Shown: positions 2,161 to 25,547 of the stretch, in pieces
How positions within the stretch are numbered: position 1 is the stretch's first letter
Layout: every line of letters begins with the position of its first letter
Assembly: GCA_030649165.1 (NCBI GenBank)
Contig: JAUSGG010000196.1
Coordinates: forward strand, 1-33,694
Origin: Armatimonadota bacterium
Lineage (GTDB): Bacteria > Armatimonadota > UBA5829 > JAUSEB01
Length of the DNA stretch: 33,694 nt
Direction: 5' to 3'
The notes under the pieces: model-generated
What the model saw: the letters and a program-made list of their open reading frames with translations, nothing else
Database searches by the model: none
What the model was told of the DNA's origin: nothing
Program-made: the position numbers and the translations under genes

Positions 2161-4619
<2,459 letters not shown>

Positions 4620-10888: not shown

Positions 10889-11530
10889 GATAAACCTTCC
10901 CCGGAACGTATCCCGGCTGCTACTCTATTTTTGTACCCCGGCTTGTGAGGCGCAAAACCTGTGGCCGGCACGTATGTTCGCATGACCGCCTGTGAGGTTA
11001 TATGGCCCGGCAATGATTCGGCCGGCCGGAGCCAAAGGAATTGGGGATTCCGGTGTTCTGTTCCGGGCGCGATGAGATATCGCGCCCGATCGAAGGCCCG
11101 ATCGAGGCGCCGAGGTGGTCGCCTCCTTCGGCAGCGTCGCCGGCGCTCTGCTACCGAAGGATCGGAAAGCGGATTCTTCGCCGGCGCTCCAAAGGAAGCG
11201 CCCCGTTTCGGGATTTCCGGGTTGGGACCCGAAGTTGTCCGCTACAGCATGCGTATGCCGCCCAACCCTCAAATCCCGAAACAACGGGTGGTTTCTTTCC
11301 GAAGCGGGCCCCGGTCATGGATGACCGGGGCCATCGGGCGGCGCGGCGCTTGCGCGTTCTTCGGCAGCGTCGCCGGCGCTATGCTACCGAAGGATCGGAA
11401 CAAGATCGGTTCAACCCTCACCCCAACCCTCTCCCTTCCAGGGAGAGGGAGTTGCGCTCGATTCACTCGATTCGTTCTGTTCGGACCCTAACCCGCCACT
11501 GAAGGTGAGGGGGAATCGTGGCCAAATGTG
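10889..11530. repeat. Repeat-filled spacer with no gene
   Basis: In order: hairpin family D (11125-11166, CTTCGG ... CCGAAG); palindromic repeat B (11190-11289); a perfect palindrome with 12-bp arms (11307-11332, GGCCCCGGTCAT / ATGACCGGGGCC); a second D copy (11359-11398); and a CTCTCCC...GGGAGAG hairpin (11416-11450). No frame in it looks like a real gene. Confidence 0.75.
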
Positions 11531-20700: not shown

Positions 20701-20965
20701 CAATGGATGACGACCGTCCCGATTGGGGGCCGGGGGATTGGCCCTGCCCCTGTCCCATCAATGCGGGCGGCATCTGGTCCCGATACTCAGCCGCGGTGGT
20801 GTAGGCGTTCCAGTCTATCTCGGCGTTCGGGAATGCCCTGGGTTGGTACCAGTAATTGTAGGCGTCCTCGTAGCCGGCGAACGCCGGCGCGCACCCGGCA
20901 AGCAGGCAGAACGCAAGCGCCAGGATGCTGAGCGCGCCATTGGTAACCGCGTGTACCTTTGGCAT
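17702..20965 (-). CDS. Exported BNR/Asp-box beta-propeller lipoprotein with shared C-terminal module
   Basis: The product is 1087 aa from the ATG at 20965 (GGAGGG eight bases upstream; an in-frame GTG three codons earlier is less well placed). The signal peptide ends in a lipobox-like LLAGC (Cys25), suggesting lipid anchoring. Residues about 95-795 are sialidase-type propeller blades with many Asp-box motifs: VWKTQDGGMTW, IMKSPNGGISW, IWRSPNKGVDW, VWRSSDRGLTW, VMKSTDAGGAW, VWMSKNRGENW and VFQTSDGGVAW. Two propellers are likely. This fold occurs in sialidases, GH74 enzymes and sortilin-like proteins, but I cannot assign catalytic residues. Residues 820-895 are an Ig-like segment. Residues about 900-1087 are the shared module, with GLSNTGLLVRMCGRFV and FTLDDGSGPVKC. 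Binding or degradation of a surface polymer is plausible. Confidence 0.85.
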   Translation of the reverse strand: MPKVHAVTNGALSILALAFCLLAGCAPAFAGYEDAYNYWYQPRAFPNAEIDWNAYTTAAEYRDQMPPALMGQGQGQSPGPQSGRSSSIGPLSLFGGWSFVGPRNLPVPYQKYFGVGSVNGRVNAVLYDSQDPDTMYIGSARGGVWKTQDGGMTWAPRSDNWPLLSVSSLAMDPSNHQIIYAGTGDFDGGYLGYGIMKSPNGGISWTNYGRPQFDGLAIRSILVDPDDPNIVTITTGRGNGWWGQIWRSPNKGVDWFPVSCTDPLWPTLGAWSDLAYSQIDTSVYPAVRYYYAVGQSPGPFRQVWRSSDRGLTWTPCILPFSSIENGVNMRVSTSPHYPRTVYIMSGYDEYVMKSTDAGGAWADMAMPLGPWIPTSGCHENFKQWSYNASLVCSSWEYTGYWTDQLYAGTRDLYFDINANLTGSGASWTSLGHTQETDARLHCDQHAISISPFDSVNEALVGNDGGVYKYIAPYTFVSLNAGLGITQFYRADFHPTDPTVMIGGTQDNATPYAWGDLANWGNTGGGDGGFCLIDPSDPQIQFATDQDTRLYSTTNAWASKSSAVLGFMPGERIPWLVAIILDPNDPKVLYAGTNYLWRRDAAGWSGRLGAKQLSLTGTITCIAVAPGDPDRIYTGSWDGEVWMSKNRGENWEAIQTGSGLGGSLPSRAIFALSVNPSNKNDLLVGVSGTGTSHLWRCADTASAYRFWDDVSGVASPKKLPDVSLNTIARDPWDPNKTWYVGNDVGVFQTSDGGVAWYNATNPLGLPNVQVNDLKAVVGQNNLYAATFGRGMWKIGLAETIALMIPPGPDDPPGVGGGSSIKGEVRLPSPAPSGGAYVALASDSSAATVAQGVTVAEGSTSALFDVATTQVQQDTPVTIEASYGGQTARATFVVALPAPSAIGSAKFNSNPGDVVSVPGYVSAVFDDCFYAQDALGTSGIRVTGSGQYPQVGENVSVSGSLDYLQPDLTLVNSNWSPVGQPQQPRPRAVSGNNIGGGANHSLQQPVEGGQGLSNTGLLVRMCGRFVKTSDTTFTLDDGSGPVKCTVPNGIVLQPGWQYVCATGISSCENVGGVIRRLIRVREQADIVAL

Positions 20966-21086
20966 ATGTTGCACCCTCCCTGAATCGTATGACGAAACGA
21001 AAAAACCGAGTGGCGGGCAGGGCCGTGGTCTGCCCGCTCACTTTGTTATCGGTTACGCCGCAAGAGAAATCACCTCAGGCGACACA

Positions 21087-21325
21087 CTAGGGCGCCAGCA
21101 GGTCCTCAAAGCTGACAACATGAATCCTCGGCTCTATATCGCCGCCCCCAGGCGTGCCCTTTCCGGAAATCGCTCCGGTGGCCGAGATGAAATGACCCAC
21201 CTGCGGCATGGTGATCGGCCCGGGCGTGTGACTGAAGTCCAGATCCAGAACCTCCTCTGGCTGGTAGTGTTAAGGCCCACTCCACTACCGATGGCGGGCT
21301 GAGCGCCGGCGAAGGATCCAACCAC
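21087..21325 (-). pseudogene. 3' remnant of a third TolB-type paralogue
   Basis: Reading minus from 21250 to the stop at 21087-21089 gives the tail QVGHFISATGAISGKGTPGG, then a short segment ending VVSFEDLLAP. This is nearly the same as the ends of the proteins at 25655 and 29704. Further upstream, in a different frame, GAQPAIGSGVGL matches GAQFGVQPAVGLGIGL of those proteins. About 40 codons between the two matches (around GLSNVGLL to WLTIDFS) are missing. No upstream propeller part remains. It is therefore a truncated, deleted and frameshifted relic, and no start codon is present. Confidence 0.85.
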
Positions 21326-21571
21326 TTACCGAAGACGCCGACCGTCCGGTCCAATGGCGCAACGTCTGGCAAGAAGTGAAGACTGCGTAGATTCTTCGCT
21401 TCACTCCTAAGGACACTGGGCGCTGGTAACGGTCGTACTTGTGCGTCCTTTGGCAACGTCGCTGCCGCTCTGCTACCGAAGGATCGGCTGGCTCGTTTCC
21501 GAAACAACCCCGATACATCGGAGTCGGTTGCTCAGAATGACGGGCTCCGGGACGTTGTTCAGGAATAATCC
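21326..21571. repeat. Mosaic of decayed spacer repeats
   Basis: It contains a TTCTTCGCTTCACTCCTAAGG segment variant related to the edge of repeat B, a hairpin family D copy (21447-21486), and a CCGAAACAACCCCGATACATCGG hairpin variant with GGTTGCTCAGAATGAC, as at the right part of the element at 4309-4619. No gene. Confidence 0.6.
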
Positions 21572-21581
21572 GGGTTAGGTC

Positions 21582-21682
21582 CAATACGGTTCACTTAAGC
21601 GGATACCCCCTCACCCCAACCCTCTCCCGCCCAGGGGGAGAGGGGGACTTGGCGGATGCGCCACGTTAAGTGAACTGTGTTG
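21582..21682. mobile_element. MITE family F, copy 1 (101 bp, 10-bp target duplication)
   Basis: The ends are CAATACGGTTCACTTAA and TTAAGTGAACTGTGTTG, a 17-bp inverted repeat with two mismatches. It is flanked by exact 10-bp duplications GGGTTAGGTC (21572-21581 and 21683-21692). The interior holds the CTCTCCC...GGGGAGAG hairpin. It differs from copy 3 (22000-22100) at one base. Ends of the CAAT...GTTCA type with 10-bp duplications are reminiscent of the IS4 family; that attribution is inference. Confidence 0.93.
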
Positions 21683-21692
21683 GGGTTAGGTC

Positions 21693-21786
21693 CAATACCG
21701 TTCACTTGAGACGTGACGTTAAAGCGTCACGCTGCCTACCGGAAAGCATGCTGAAGCAAGCTACAGGGCTAGAGTGAACTGTATTG
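21693..21786. mobile_element. MITE family F, variant copy 2 (94 bp) with a different core
   Basis: It has the same terminal type (CAATACCGTTCACTTGAG / CTAGAGTGAACTGTATTG) but an unrelated interior with a GTGACGTTAAAGCGTCAC hairpin. It is flanked by the same GGGTTAGGTC 10-mer on both sides (21683-21692 and 21787-21796), sharing its left copy with element 1. Two elements therefore sit head to tail between three copies of one target. Confidence 0.9.
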
Positions 21787-21999
21787 GGGTTAGGTCAGTC
21801 GCCCAAATCTTTGGTGTTTTCGTCCTTTCGTGATTGACTCCCCATGTAACTGGGATGCACCCGGTTATCGGTTGACAGTTCACGGTTGGCGTTGCGCCCA
21901 TCTCAGCCTTACGCGCCCAACCAGTGAAAGCCTGCTAAGTTCGCAGCCCAAGACCTTGTGCCGATTCCAGGGGTTGGGTTACGACGGGTATACTAGCCT

Positions 22000-22100
22000 C
22001 AATACGGTTCACTTAAGCGGATCCCCCCTCACCCCAACCCTCTCCCGCCCAGGGGGAGAGGGGGACTTGGCGGATGCGCCACGTTAAGTGAACTGTGTTG
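22000..22100. mobile_element. MITE family F, copy 3 (101 bp, 10-bp target duplication)
   Basis: It is 100/101 identical to copy 1 and in the same orientation, but flanked by a different exact 10-bp duplication, ATACTAGCCT (21990-21999 and 22101-22110). The different target with an intact duplication shows a separate transposition event rather than a segmental copy. Confidence 0.95.
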
Positions 22101-22170
22101 ATACTAGCCTGGATTATTCACGATGTGCCTGTATTGCCGGCAGTGCGCAGACACGTCATTCTTCGCTTCG

Positions 22171-22274
22171 CTCCTAAGGAAGCGCCCCGTTTCGGGATTT
22201 CCGGGTTGGGACCGGAAGTTGTCTGCTATAGTATGCGTATGCCGCCCAACCCTCAAATCCCGAAACAACGGGGT
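22171..22274. repeat. Palindromic repeat B, copy 3
   Basis: CTCCTAAGGAAGCGCCCCG, a 30-bp arm, an inner ACCGGAAGTTGTCTGCTATAG-type loop (shortened here) and a complementary arm ending CGAAACAACGGGG. It is closely related to the copies at 4426-4568 and 11190-11289. Confidence 0.8.
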
Positions 22275-22337
22275 GACTGCTAAGTTCGCAGCTCAAGACC
22301 TTGTGCCGATTCCAGGGGTTGGGTTACGACTGGTATA

Positions 22338-25300
22338 CTAGTTCTCGCCAAGTAAGAACGTCGATACGTCGAAAGGACTTCGGATAAAGATCACGCGCCG
22401 GAGATTATTGGATATGTCTTTTTCGCACGCCGCGGCGCCCGTGACAGCGACATACTGCCAGCCCTCGCTGACATACGCGCCGGGGTAAACATAGCACTTC
22501 ACAGGTGTCCCCGAGCCATCATCTATCTCGAAGGCAAATTCGCTCAAGTAGAAGAATCTACCGCACGAAGTAACCAGGAGGCCCATGTCGTTCAAACCCG
22601 ATGCCCCCGGAATTCCTTCCTGGAGGCCGAATGGCCCGCCGCCAACCATCCGGTTGCTCATCGCAACCGGGTTCGCCGCGGCGTCCCATCTTTCCCGATA
22701 GTAGCATCCGGACAGGCATTTCTCTCCACCTTCGGTGGTCGCGGTCGTCCCAATCACTTCTATCATTTTGCCAACCGGAGCGGCTATGCCTTCGAGTCTG
22801 ATACCCGCGGAGCCGTTTTGCTCCTGGCCGTAAGTCGTCAAGTAAGCGGACACTGTTGTGACCAGCAGCGGCAGCCCCAGCTTCTGGCCGTCCGTGTAGG
22901 CCTTCGCGGACGATGCATTGGCGACAATCGGGTCGCCGCCGTCGAGCGGCGAGGTCGACGCGGAAACCTCCAGGCCGTCGGAAAGCCCCTCCCCGTCAGT
23001 GTCGGGGTCGGTCGGGTTCGTGCCCGTCTGATACTCCTGGAGGTTCGTCAGACCGTCATCGTCGGGGTCGAGCGACTGCTCTCCGGCATTGTTCGGATCG
23101 AAGCCGTAAGCCTCTTCCCACTGGTCGGACAGGCCGTCTCCGTCGGTGTCCAGAACGTAGGACGTAGCGTCGTCTACGTTCGAGAGCGCGCCGAGGCTGC
23201 CCGCTTCGTCCTGGGTCTTGATGGCGAAGTAGTAGAGGGTGTTGGGGTCCGGCATTTCAAGCCCGTGTTGCTCGACCTGGCCCGCCGCCAGTGGTCGATC
23301 CAGAAAATCGAACTCGGAACATGTGGTCAGGTTTCCCACGGTGATCGGCACGGTGTTGAAATAGACGTGGTACCTGGCGGCCTGTCCCGTGTTGCCGTCG
23401 TCTCCGGGCGATGTCCACGTCAAGGATACGGATTTGCCGGATTGCCCCGTAACCGCGGAGAGATTCGTGATAGGCCCCGGCGCCGTCGTATCGGCCGAGG
23501 GAAACGCAAGAACGGTGTATATTCCTTCCGCCAAGCCCTCCGCCGAGACTCTCGGCCAACCCGCTCTTACCACTGCCGTAACGGGTACCCATTCTTTGGT
23601 CGAAATCTCAAAGCGGCACAGCGTCATCGTGGACGAATCCCGACCGGGCATGAGGTCCGGGTTGATTCGCCAGTTTATCGTATAGTTCGACCCGCCGGAA
23701 GCCCCGCTCTGCAAATGGAACGAAACCGGGTTAGCGAGGAACTCCATCGCCGGGTTCATCGGCGGGACCGGCAGGATCGGCGCGTCGCCGGAGTCGAGCG
23801 TGACCGCGAGAACACTTTGCGTGAGGATTCCCGCGGGCAGAAGCGACTCCTGCCACGCGTCCGGGCTAAACAGCATCGGCGGCCTGTCCGCGCGCGTCTT
23901 TTGCACGGAGAAGTTCGTGGATAGCTGCGTTTGCCCGCCGGAGGAAGCAGCCGTTACGTCCACTCCGCCGTCGTCGTGCTCGCTTCCGATGTTTACGGAT
24001 CCCTGGAAGATATTGGGCCCGGCGGGAGTCATGGGGACGGGGACTTGCGAGCCGAACGATGGGCGGACGAAGACCTGCGGCGGGCCGACCAGCGGCCGGT
24101 CGGCTACCACCATCATTGTCAGAGTATTCTCCACGCCGGCGGGAGCTATGCCCGCATCCAATATGAGGCGCGGCCCGTTTCCCGTGATTATGGCCGCCTG
24201 TAGGCCGGAGGCGGGTTCCGGAGCGCCTTGCGGCTCCTGTGACGCCGGCGAGGACGTACCCGACGGAAACTCACAATATTCCCAGAGCACAAAAGCGCTG
24301 AGATACCGGGGGATATCACCCGGGCCGCCGCGGTCCGAAGAGGAGCGCTTCTCGCCATTCAACCAATCGTAACCCTGGTAGACCCCATCCGGCGGCATCA
24401 AAAGCGCTATGCGCCTTCCGCCATAGCCGCCCCAGTTGCCCTGCGTACCGTTTCTGTTATCGAACCGGTCGAAGACGTGCTGCCAGCAGGGCCGATGCCC
24501 GCCGCCCGAACGGACGTTCCACCACCATATCTCGTTCGTACACTTGTCCGCCGACTTGCCGACGTAGTTACCCAGGTAGTCGTTGTTGGAGGACATCTCC
24601 GATGAATTATACTGGTCATCCATCAATCCGTAGTTGCTCGGCGCTTTGTCGTGGTTCCAGAACCGGTAATCGTCCCAAGCGCTCTCGTTGCCGTTCCCGT
24701 TCAGGTATTCGTCGAACAGCTCGAGCAGATAGTGCCCGCACTCGTGGACGATTGTTCGATAGTAATTCGCTTCATCCGGGTTACCCGTCCATGTGTTGAT
24801 GCTGTTGAAGTTCTTAGGCAGCCAGATATGGTGGTTGTAGTTGACGCTGTCGCTCGTTACGCCATCAATCGTGGCGTGCGGCCAGGTGCTGTCGTTCTTA
24901 ATCCGGATGTCCGCGTCCAGGTATGTCTGCGAGCTGTGGCCGATGTTGTTGCGGATGTCGATCTTGCCGTATTTCATGTGCCCATCGGTGACGTCGAACA
25001 GGTACTTGGAAGCGCTGCGAAAGCCCGCTCGCAATTTGCTTCGGTAGTCGGCGTCGGCGTTCCAATCCAGGGCAACCATGAGATTCCATGAGAACACCGG
25101 GTGAGACGTCCAGACGTTGACGGTTCCACCACTGTTGATCGTCTGCGCTTCGCCGGATGTGAGAGCGCGCCTCACCATGTCCCCGTTGCTCTTCACTGTG
25201 TCGGTGTCCGCGTAGAGGTCGAACATCGCGCCCGCAAGGTTCCTTGTGCCTTTCGCGGCGGTTTCGGAGCGGACCAGAAACCGGGCGTACAGCTTGTCGT

Positions 25301-25547
25301 CCTTGGCGACGTTGTTCAGGGTCACGGTTCCGTCAGCGGCGATATTAGCCGACAGGAGCGTACCGGCGGTCTTGTAGTGATACCATAACTGGCCGCTTGA
25401 GATCTGCTCGCCGGCGTCGTACTGTCCGTCACGGTCGGTGTCGAAGTACATGCGCAGTTTGCCTGCCGCGGCGGGTTGGCTCACCCAGGCAGTCGCGCAA
25501 GTGACGAGCAATAGCGCCGCAAGAGTCAGAGACACCCGCTGTCGCAC
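22338..25547 (-). CDS. Exported zincin-like metalloprotease with FN3, calcium-binding repeats and shared C-terminal module
   Basis: The product is 1069 aa. The start is GTG (25545-25547) with GGAGGGAAGG upstream. Residues 1-28 are a signal peptide. Residues 145-400 contain YYRTIVHECGHYLLELFDEY: HECGH at 268-272 with a downstream DEY (279-281), resembling the HExxH plus D/E arrangement of the metallohydrolase part of CLCA-type proteins. His268, Glu269 and His272 are thus candidate zinc/catalytic residues. Several Cys and Trp follow (EIWWWNV, HRPCWQHVFD). Residues about 455-550 are Ig-like, 690-795 FN3, and 798-862 contain calcium-binding DxDxDG repeats (DTDGDGLSDQWEE, DPDDDGLTNLQEY). Residues about 878-1069 are the shared module (GLNDMGLLVTSCGRF, FEIDDGSGTPVKCYV). 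Probably a secreted protease; the substrate is unknown. Confidence 0.82.
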   Translation of the reverse strand: MRQRVSLTLAALLLVTCATAWVSQPAAAGKLRMYFDTDRDGQYDAGEQISSGQLWYHYKTAGTLLSANIAADGTVTLNNVAKDDKLYARFLVRSETAAKGTRNLAGAMFDLYADTDTVKSNGDMVRRALTSGEAQTINSGGTVNVWTSHPVFSWNLMVALDWNADADYRSKLRAGFRSASKYLFDVTDGHMKYGKIDIRNNIGHSSQTYLDADIRIKNDSTWPHATIDGVTSDSVNYNHHIWLPKNFNSINTWTGNPDEANYYRTIVHECGHYLLELFDEYLNGNGNESAWDDYRFWNHDKAPSNYGLMDDQYNSSEMSSNNDYLGNYVGKSADKCTNEIWWWNVRSGGGHRPCWQHVFDRFDNRNGTQGNWGGYGGRRIALLMPPDGVYQGYDWLNGEKRSSSDRGGPGDIPRYLSAFVLWEYCEFPSGTSSPASQEPQGAPEPASGLQAAIITGNGPRLILDAGIAPAGVENTLTMMVVADRPLVGPPQVFVRPSFGSQVPVPMTPAGPNIFQGSVNIGSEHDDGGVDVTAASSGGQTQLSTNFSVQKTRADRPPMLFSPDAWQESLLPAGILTQSVLAVTLDSGDAPILPVPPMNPAMEFLANPVSFHLQSGASGGSNYTINWRINPDLMPGRDSSTMTLCRFEISTKEWVPVTAVVRAGWPRVSAEGLAEGIYTVLAFPSADTTAPGPITNLSAVTGQSGKSVSLTWTSPGDDGNTGQAARYHVYFNTVPITVGNLTTCSEFDFLDRPLAAGQVEQHGLEMPDPNTLYYFAIKTQDEAGSLGALSNVDDATSYVLDTDGDGLSDQWEEAYGFDPNNAGEQSLDPDDDGLTNLQEYQTGTNPTDPDTDGEGLSDGLEVSASTSPLDGGDPIVANASSAKAYTDGQKLGLPLLVTTVSAYLTTYGQEQNGSAGIRLEGIAAPVGKMIEVIGTTATTEGGEKCLSGCYYRERWDAAANPVAMSNRMVGGGPFGLQEGIPGASGLNDMGLLVTSCGRFFYLSEFAFEIDDGSGTPVKCYVYPGAYVSEGWQYVAVTGAAACEKDISNNLRRVIFIRSPFDVSTFLLGEN

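Follow-up and report, generated by a model that had tools for sequence, protein, structure and literature searches.

IS231A inserts into the ends of Tn4430. Work on the specificity of IS231A is cited in a published account of the IS4 subgroup, whose members have ends of the form -AATR--------WTW----, are 1400–1650 bp long and make target duplications of 10–13 bp; for some of them, the specificity noted in the target arms is marked (De Palmenaer et al. 2008, PMC2266710). REP sequences and repeated extragenic sequences are likewise known as IS targets (PMC1525189). For MITEs in Armatimonadota and for IS231A/Tn4430, nothing was found in the limited literature collection that was searched, and a term search of a review of bacterial MITEs (PMC10969869) returned no mention of IS4 or IS1380. 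Here we describe two families of small elements in a 33,694-nucleotide stretch of an Armatimonadota genome (hereafter the window, meaning that stretch at its full length) and in the genome to which it belongs. We consider it highly probable (roughly 90%) that both are MITEs moved in trans by an IS4-subgroup DDE transposase, and that they insert mostly into the junctions of IS1380-type MITEs.

Three small elements in one intergenic region

All three elements of the window (101, 94 and 101 bp) lie within a single intergenic region (Table 1), and Rfam gave no match within window positions 20900–22500. A previous sequence-only reading had described the two 101-bp copies as near-identical and as sitting in different exact 10-bp duplications, and both statements were confirmed: the elements at 21582–21682 and 22000–22100 differ at a single base, and their duplications are GGGTTAGGTC and ATACTAGCCT, respectively. 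The first copy belongs to an array at 21572–21796 in which GGGTTAGGTC, the 101-mer, GGGTTAGGTC, the 94-mer and GGGTTAGGTC follow one another.

Table 1. Elements and target duplications identified in the window
Feature	Position	Strand	Remarks
Degenerate, probably IS1380-type MITE (family B1), right-hand part	21486..21574	+	80% identity to B1 positions 164-250
B1 end AATAATCCGGG of this part, left side of the target	within 21486..21574		15/16 to the B terminal repeat, exact register
Target duplication GGGTTAGGTC, copy 1 of 3, 10 bp	21572..21581	.	
Family A, copy 1, 101-bp IS4-type MITE	21582..21682	+	
Target duplication GGGTTAGGTC, copy 2 of 3, 10 bp	21683..21692	.	common to both adjoining elements
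E2, 94-bp sister MITE with A-type ends and REP-like core	21693..21786	+	
Target duplication GGGTTAGGTC, copy 3 of 3, 10 bp	21787..21796	.	
Target duplication ATACTAGCCT, left copy, 10 bp	21990..21999	.	
Family A, second 101-bp IS4-type MITE of the window ("copy 3" of the sequence-only reading)	22000..22100	+	
Target duplication ATACTAGCCT, right copy, 10 bp	22101..22110	.	overlaps the start of the B element by its final 3 bases
Probably IS1380-type MITE B1, left part (1-168 of 250), target of the 22000-22100 copy	22108..22275	+	96% identity to a 250-bp B1 copy in contig C57; 15/16 to the B terminal repeat, exact register

The same region carries a 65-bp direct repeat (97%; 21932–21996 and 22277–22341) that corresponds to the sequence at the 3' end of the gene at 22338–25547 (minus strand), stop codon included. 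Its second copy is found where B1 would otherwise continue to the right, suggesting that a local duplication took place after B1 had inserted at CTAG. Elsewhere in the window, positions 4416–4574 and 11173–11303 match the interior of B1 at 90–92%, with the B end portions outside the match, and this interior may be another independent repeat.

Two sister MITE families across the genome

A search of the window's own genome (G000; 5.48 Mb in 266 contigs) with the 101-mer returned 45 matches, about 29 of them full-length, counts that are lower bounds since contigs end inside these repeats. With copies oriented alike, the 28 that measure exactly 101 bp show 7 variable columns: 3 are interior, each with its change in one copy, and the remaining four fall on positions 4 and 7 from one end or the other. 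So few variable columns are a signature of recent spread, and the earlier description of a recently active, non-autonomous family, made from the window alone, holds at the scale of the genome. Most variation among the copies falls at positions 4, 7, 95 and 98, at which left and right ends differ even within a single element, and exchange between ends is a possible cause of the variation at end positions 4 and 7. The 17-bp end pattern CAAYACNGTTCACTTRA, allowing at most 2 mismatches, matched the genome 91 times, compared to 6 for the reversed control pattern.

Both A and the 94-bp E2 are gene-free and multicopy, with paired inverted ends and target duplications, i.e. the features of MITEs, and they represent two sister MITE families with common ends. 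Parts of their interiors also occur in other contexts. The E2 core is REP-like and stands alone at many loci, and the A core (CCCTCACCCCAACCCTCTCCC...GGGAGAGGGGG) also occurs on its own, as well as within B-ended elements and within a third MITE-like repeat. This third repeat, with ends GTTCAGTTCT..GGGAA / TTCCC..ACTGAACTGTT, was observed in contigs C139 (L265), C42 (L264) and C18 (L027), and has about 60 bp of core in common with the 101-mer. Overall, the type of element is itself ordinary, and it is a strong, nested target preference that sets these families apart.

Insertions concentrate at the junctions of probable IS1380-type MITEs

Targets were tabulated for elements of 101/102 bp and 94 bp at 37 distinct insertions. 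A duplication of exactly 10 bp, within the 10–13 bp of the IS4 subgroup, was found at 29 of these and one with at most 1 mismatch at 32, while a scan up to 14 bp detected none longer than 10 bp, extending to the genome the duplication length first read from the window. In 33 of the 37 insertions the 10-mer has YTAR at its centre, and most target 10-mers run on one side into ...TCRTGAATAATCCGGG, which is the end of a different element, hereafter B. Elements of this kind are gene-free and 185–250 bp long, with ends CCCGGATTATTCAYGA, a 4-bp YTAR duplication and several internal families. End pairs 185–250 bp apart are flanked by YTAR/YTAR duplications, and 151 B ends were counted in the genome, where the control pattern matched once. 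A and B are unrelated, and B is a genuine MITE in its own right. Given that remnants of IS1380-type transposases (PF13701) adjoin B-like ends with YTAR-type flanks in this genome and in two relatives (G003 and G005), an IS1380-type MITE group is the most likely identity of B. In the own genome this transposase is assembled as a remnant only, and no intact IS1380 element with B ends was seen.

Insertions are concentrated at the junctions of these elements, which the sequence-only reading had missed. A B end lies in exact register at 22 of the 33 YTAR-centred sites, whereas in 255 kb of contigs picked without regard to these elements the same holds for 1 of 759 YTAR sites. The other 11 lack a recognisable B end immediately next to them, making B a preference rather than a requirement, and GGGYTAR is present at most targets without a B end too. 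The orientation of A relative to B is uneven (15 vs 6), which a rough estimate judged not significant. The sequence-only reading had also raised the possibility that the flanking 10-mers belong to a longer repeat. On one side they do, as they continue into the B end, but on the far side the repeat covers the 10 bp only and the flank is unique. The repeat that continues from the 10-mer, i.e. B, is the target, and was present before A: its three terminal bases recur beyond A, on the side away from B, indicating that A was inserted later.

This concentration could in principle reflect survival, if any GGGYTAR is used and insertions at B ends persist because the intergenic DNA around B copies is harmless to disrupt. 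GGGYTAR is carried by most non-B sites, and insertions elsewhere could disrupt genes. However, if only intergenic GGGYTAR half-sites compete, 18–24% of insertions would be expected at B ends, compared to the 67% observed (P 6e-10 to 3e-7; 22 intergenic half-sites counted from a rough ORF call, with an approximate coding/intergenic split). The double insertions also argue against survival: at two loci, the window and C139 26874–27078, two elements occupy one 10-bp target, and these tandem arrays represent repeated use of a single target. We thus regard survival as an unlikely explanation.

The same preference was found in G005 (JACPPP01, an Armatimonadetes MAG), which belongs to another family of the same order. 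Its MITE is a different one, 103 bp long, which has CAATACGGTTCACTTAA at its ends and lies between 10-bp duplications centred on YTAR, and a B end is in register at 3 of the 3 sites for which both flanks are assembled. Separately, a 102-bp MITE at two loci of the own genome, in contigs C15 (L259) and C229 (L260), has GGGACAGAGC or its complement as target, not YTAR, as do the IS4 5' parts in C171 (L257) and C199 (L255). These GGGACAGAGC sites, each inside a repeated ACCGGGGACAGAGC sequence, make up a second preferred target unlike the first.

A candidate partner transposase of the IS4 subgroup

The sequence-only reading had placed a partner element outside the window and had likened the ends and duplication length to the IS4 family, and both suggestions were borne out, by transposase fragments in the own genome and by complete ISs with the same ends in other bacteria. 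The left end of A, CAATACGGTTCACTTAA, fits the IS4-subgroup consensus, and so does its right end (CAACAC...) except at position 4, where most copies depart from the T of the subgroup. In the own genome, an IS4 transposase N-terminus (PF13006, E 9e-18; 106 residues) starts beside CAATACTGTTTACTTAA. This start is held at the end of C96, the start of C199 and the end of C171; C96 and C199 overlap exactly over 141 bases inside the transposase gene, and C171 ends in the same sequence. In C96 the gene continues as unrelated coding sequence, and this copy is therefore truncated. The IS4 transposase is present in at least two copies on which the assembly is broken. Hence, although no complete partner IS is assembled in the 266 contigs, only broken 5' parts covering the N-terminus, this is weak evidence of absence. 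As CAATACTGTTTACTTAA and the left end of A disagree at 2 of their 17 positions, the true partner could be a different IS that escaped assembly; the partly assembled IS4 transposase is the candidate mover of A and E2. None of the DDE_Tnp_1 matches in the own genome considered as partners had CAATAC-type ends in the flanks examined, and two of them are DUF4372 (PF14294) plus DDE_Tnp_1 transposases.

When 84,980 species genomes were scanned for CAATACNGTTCACTTAA, at least 119 stretches were returned, and the matches listed include two complete ISs. One, from an acidobacterium (L139:5086-6540), is 1455 bp long with a perfect end pair and the target duplication GGGCTAACCC; the other, from a gemmatimonad (L185:1120-2602), is 1483 bp long, and its target duplication was not matched. 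Both sizes are within the range of the IS4 subgroup. The two transposases, which are 50% identical, each combine Nterm_IS4 (E 1e-22 and 5e-24, respectively) with DDE_Tnp_1 and score as NF033592, IS4 family transposase. In their alignment the Y(2)R(3)E(6)K signature reads YHERWEIETALDELK, and the DDE spacing lies within D(60-110)D(100-150)E, as in the subgroup. A PDB sequence search with the acidobacterial protein gave no meaningful match. In G005, a 499-bp remnant bounded by similar degenerate ends holds an IS4 transposase C-terminus 69% identical to this same protein.

These complete ISs, along with the clean 10-bp duplications and the conserved 17-bp ends, make it very improbable that A and E2 are, instead of DDE transposons, palindromes of REP type that owe their spread to recombination or a REP-associated tyrosine transposase, even if the 101-mer folds into a strong hairpin (-52.5 kcal/mol) and both cores also occur alone as palindromic repeats. 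REP and BIME sequences are palindromes without target duplication that spread through Y1 transposases, and duplications are present here. Equally improbable is mobilisation by an IS701-like transposase, as encoded inside a 1659-bp Microcoleus element (L155:2298-3956) that has the same ends, a 10-bp duplication and an IS701-like DDE_5 protein. Published IS701 elements make 4-bp duplications (PMC2266710), not 10-bp ones, and the end in the own genome adjoins an IS4 N-terminus. In addition, the left end of the Microcoleus element resembles a local 138-bp MITE (L154, L195), so that its DDE_5 gene is probably a nested insert, and this element was set aside as a partner. Finally, segmental copying of a composite A+B unit, which would turn one event into many adjacencies and would fit two adjoining high-copy repeats, can practically be dismissed, as target duplications differ from site to site, A adjoins several different B families in either orientation, and far flanks are unique.

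Taken together, the IS4-subgroup reading suggests the following sequence of events. An IS4-family (IS4-subgroup) DDE transposase, acting in trans, would recognise the 17-bp ends CAAYACNGTTCACTTRA and join them to target strands cut with a 10-bp stagger, hence the 10-bp duplications; movement would probably be cut-and-paste. The target core is GGG-YTAR in either orientation, and mostly the outer junction of the B elements serves as such, with the B end supplying GGG (or its complement) and the 4-bp duplication of B supplying YTAR. Each insertion would restore the target beside the B end and leave the same site open to another, which would account for the array of alternating duplications and elements in the window. 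B ends may also be recognised directly, beyond GGGYTAR. A broader proposal, in which the transposase selects the IS1380-type MITE end beyond GGGYTAR, either by sequence or through bound IS1380 transposase, and MITE cores are exchanged as well, is tentative, and we place it somewhat below even odds. If true, one transposon family serves another as a landing site that is renewed with use, and MITEs of different IS families may be built from shared palindromic cores.

Relationship to known systems

These families provide a clean and countable case of a bacterial mini-transposon that prefers the insertion scars of another, based on dozens of independent insertions and with a second genome that behaves alike. 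This suggests how intergenic repeat islands can grow without hits to genes, and helps explain where this assembly breaks.

The closest resemblance is to the IS4 subgroup (PMC2266710), with which A and E2 share ends fitting -AATR--------WTW and 10-bp duplications, and whose transposases carry the YREK signature. Within this subgroup, the ends of an ISBvi1-family element carried by a Cupriavidus plasmid (CAATACTGTTCAGATAG) are related, its target duplication is CGGCTAGACA, and its transposase is 54% identical to the acidobacterial one. Unlike IS4-subgroup ISs, A and E2 are gene-free and about 100 bp long; likewise, B copies differ from the IS1380 family in being gene-free and 185–250 bp long. 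As in bacterial MITEs generally (PMC10969869), A and E2 are short and gene-free, with paired ends, target duplications and a hairpin fold. A preference for the junction of another MITE is, however, unusual among them. Like IS231A at Tn4430, A takes a transposon end as its target, and like the REP-targeting ISs (PMC1525189), it takes a repeated extragenic element. What differs from both of these systems is that a MITE is doing the inserting, and that it lands at the duplication junction of another, probably IS1380-type, MITE.
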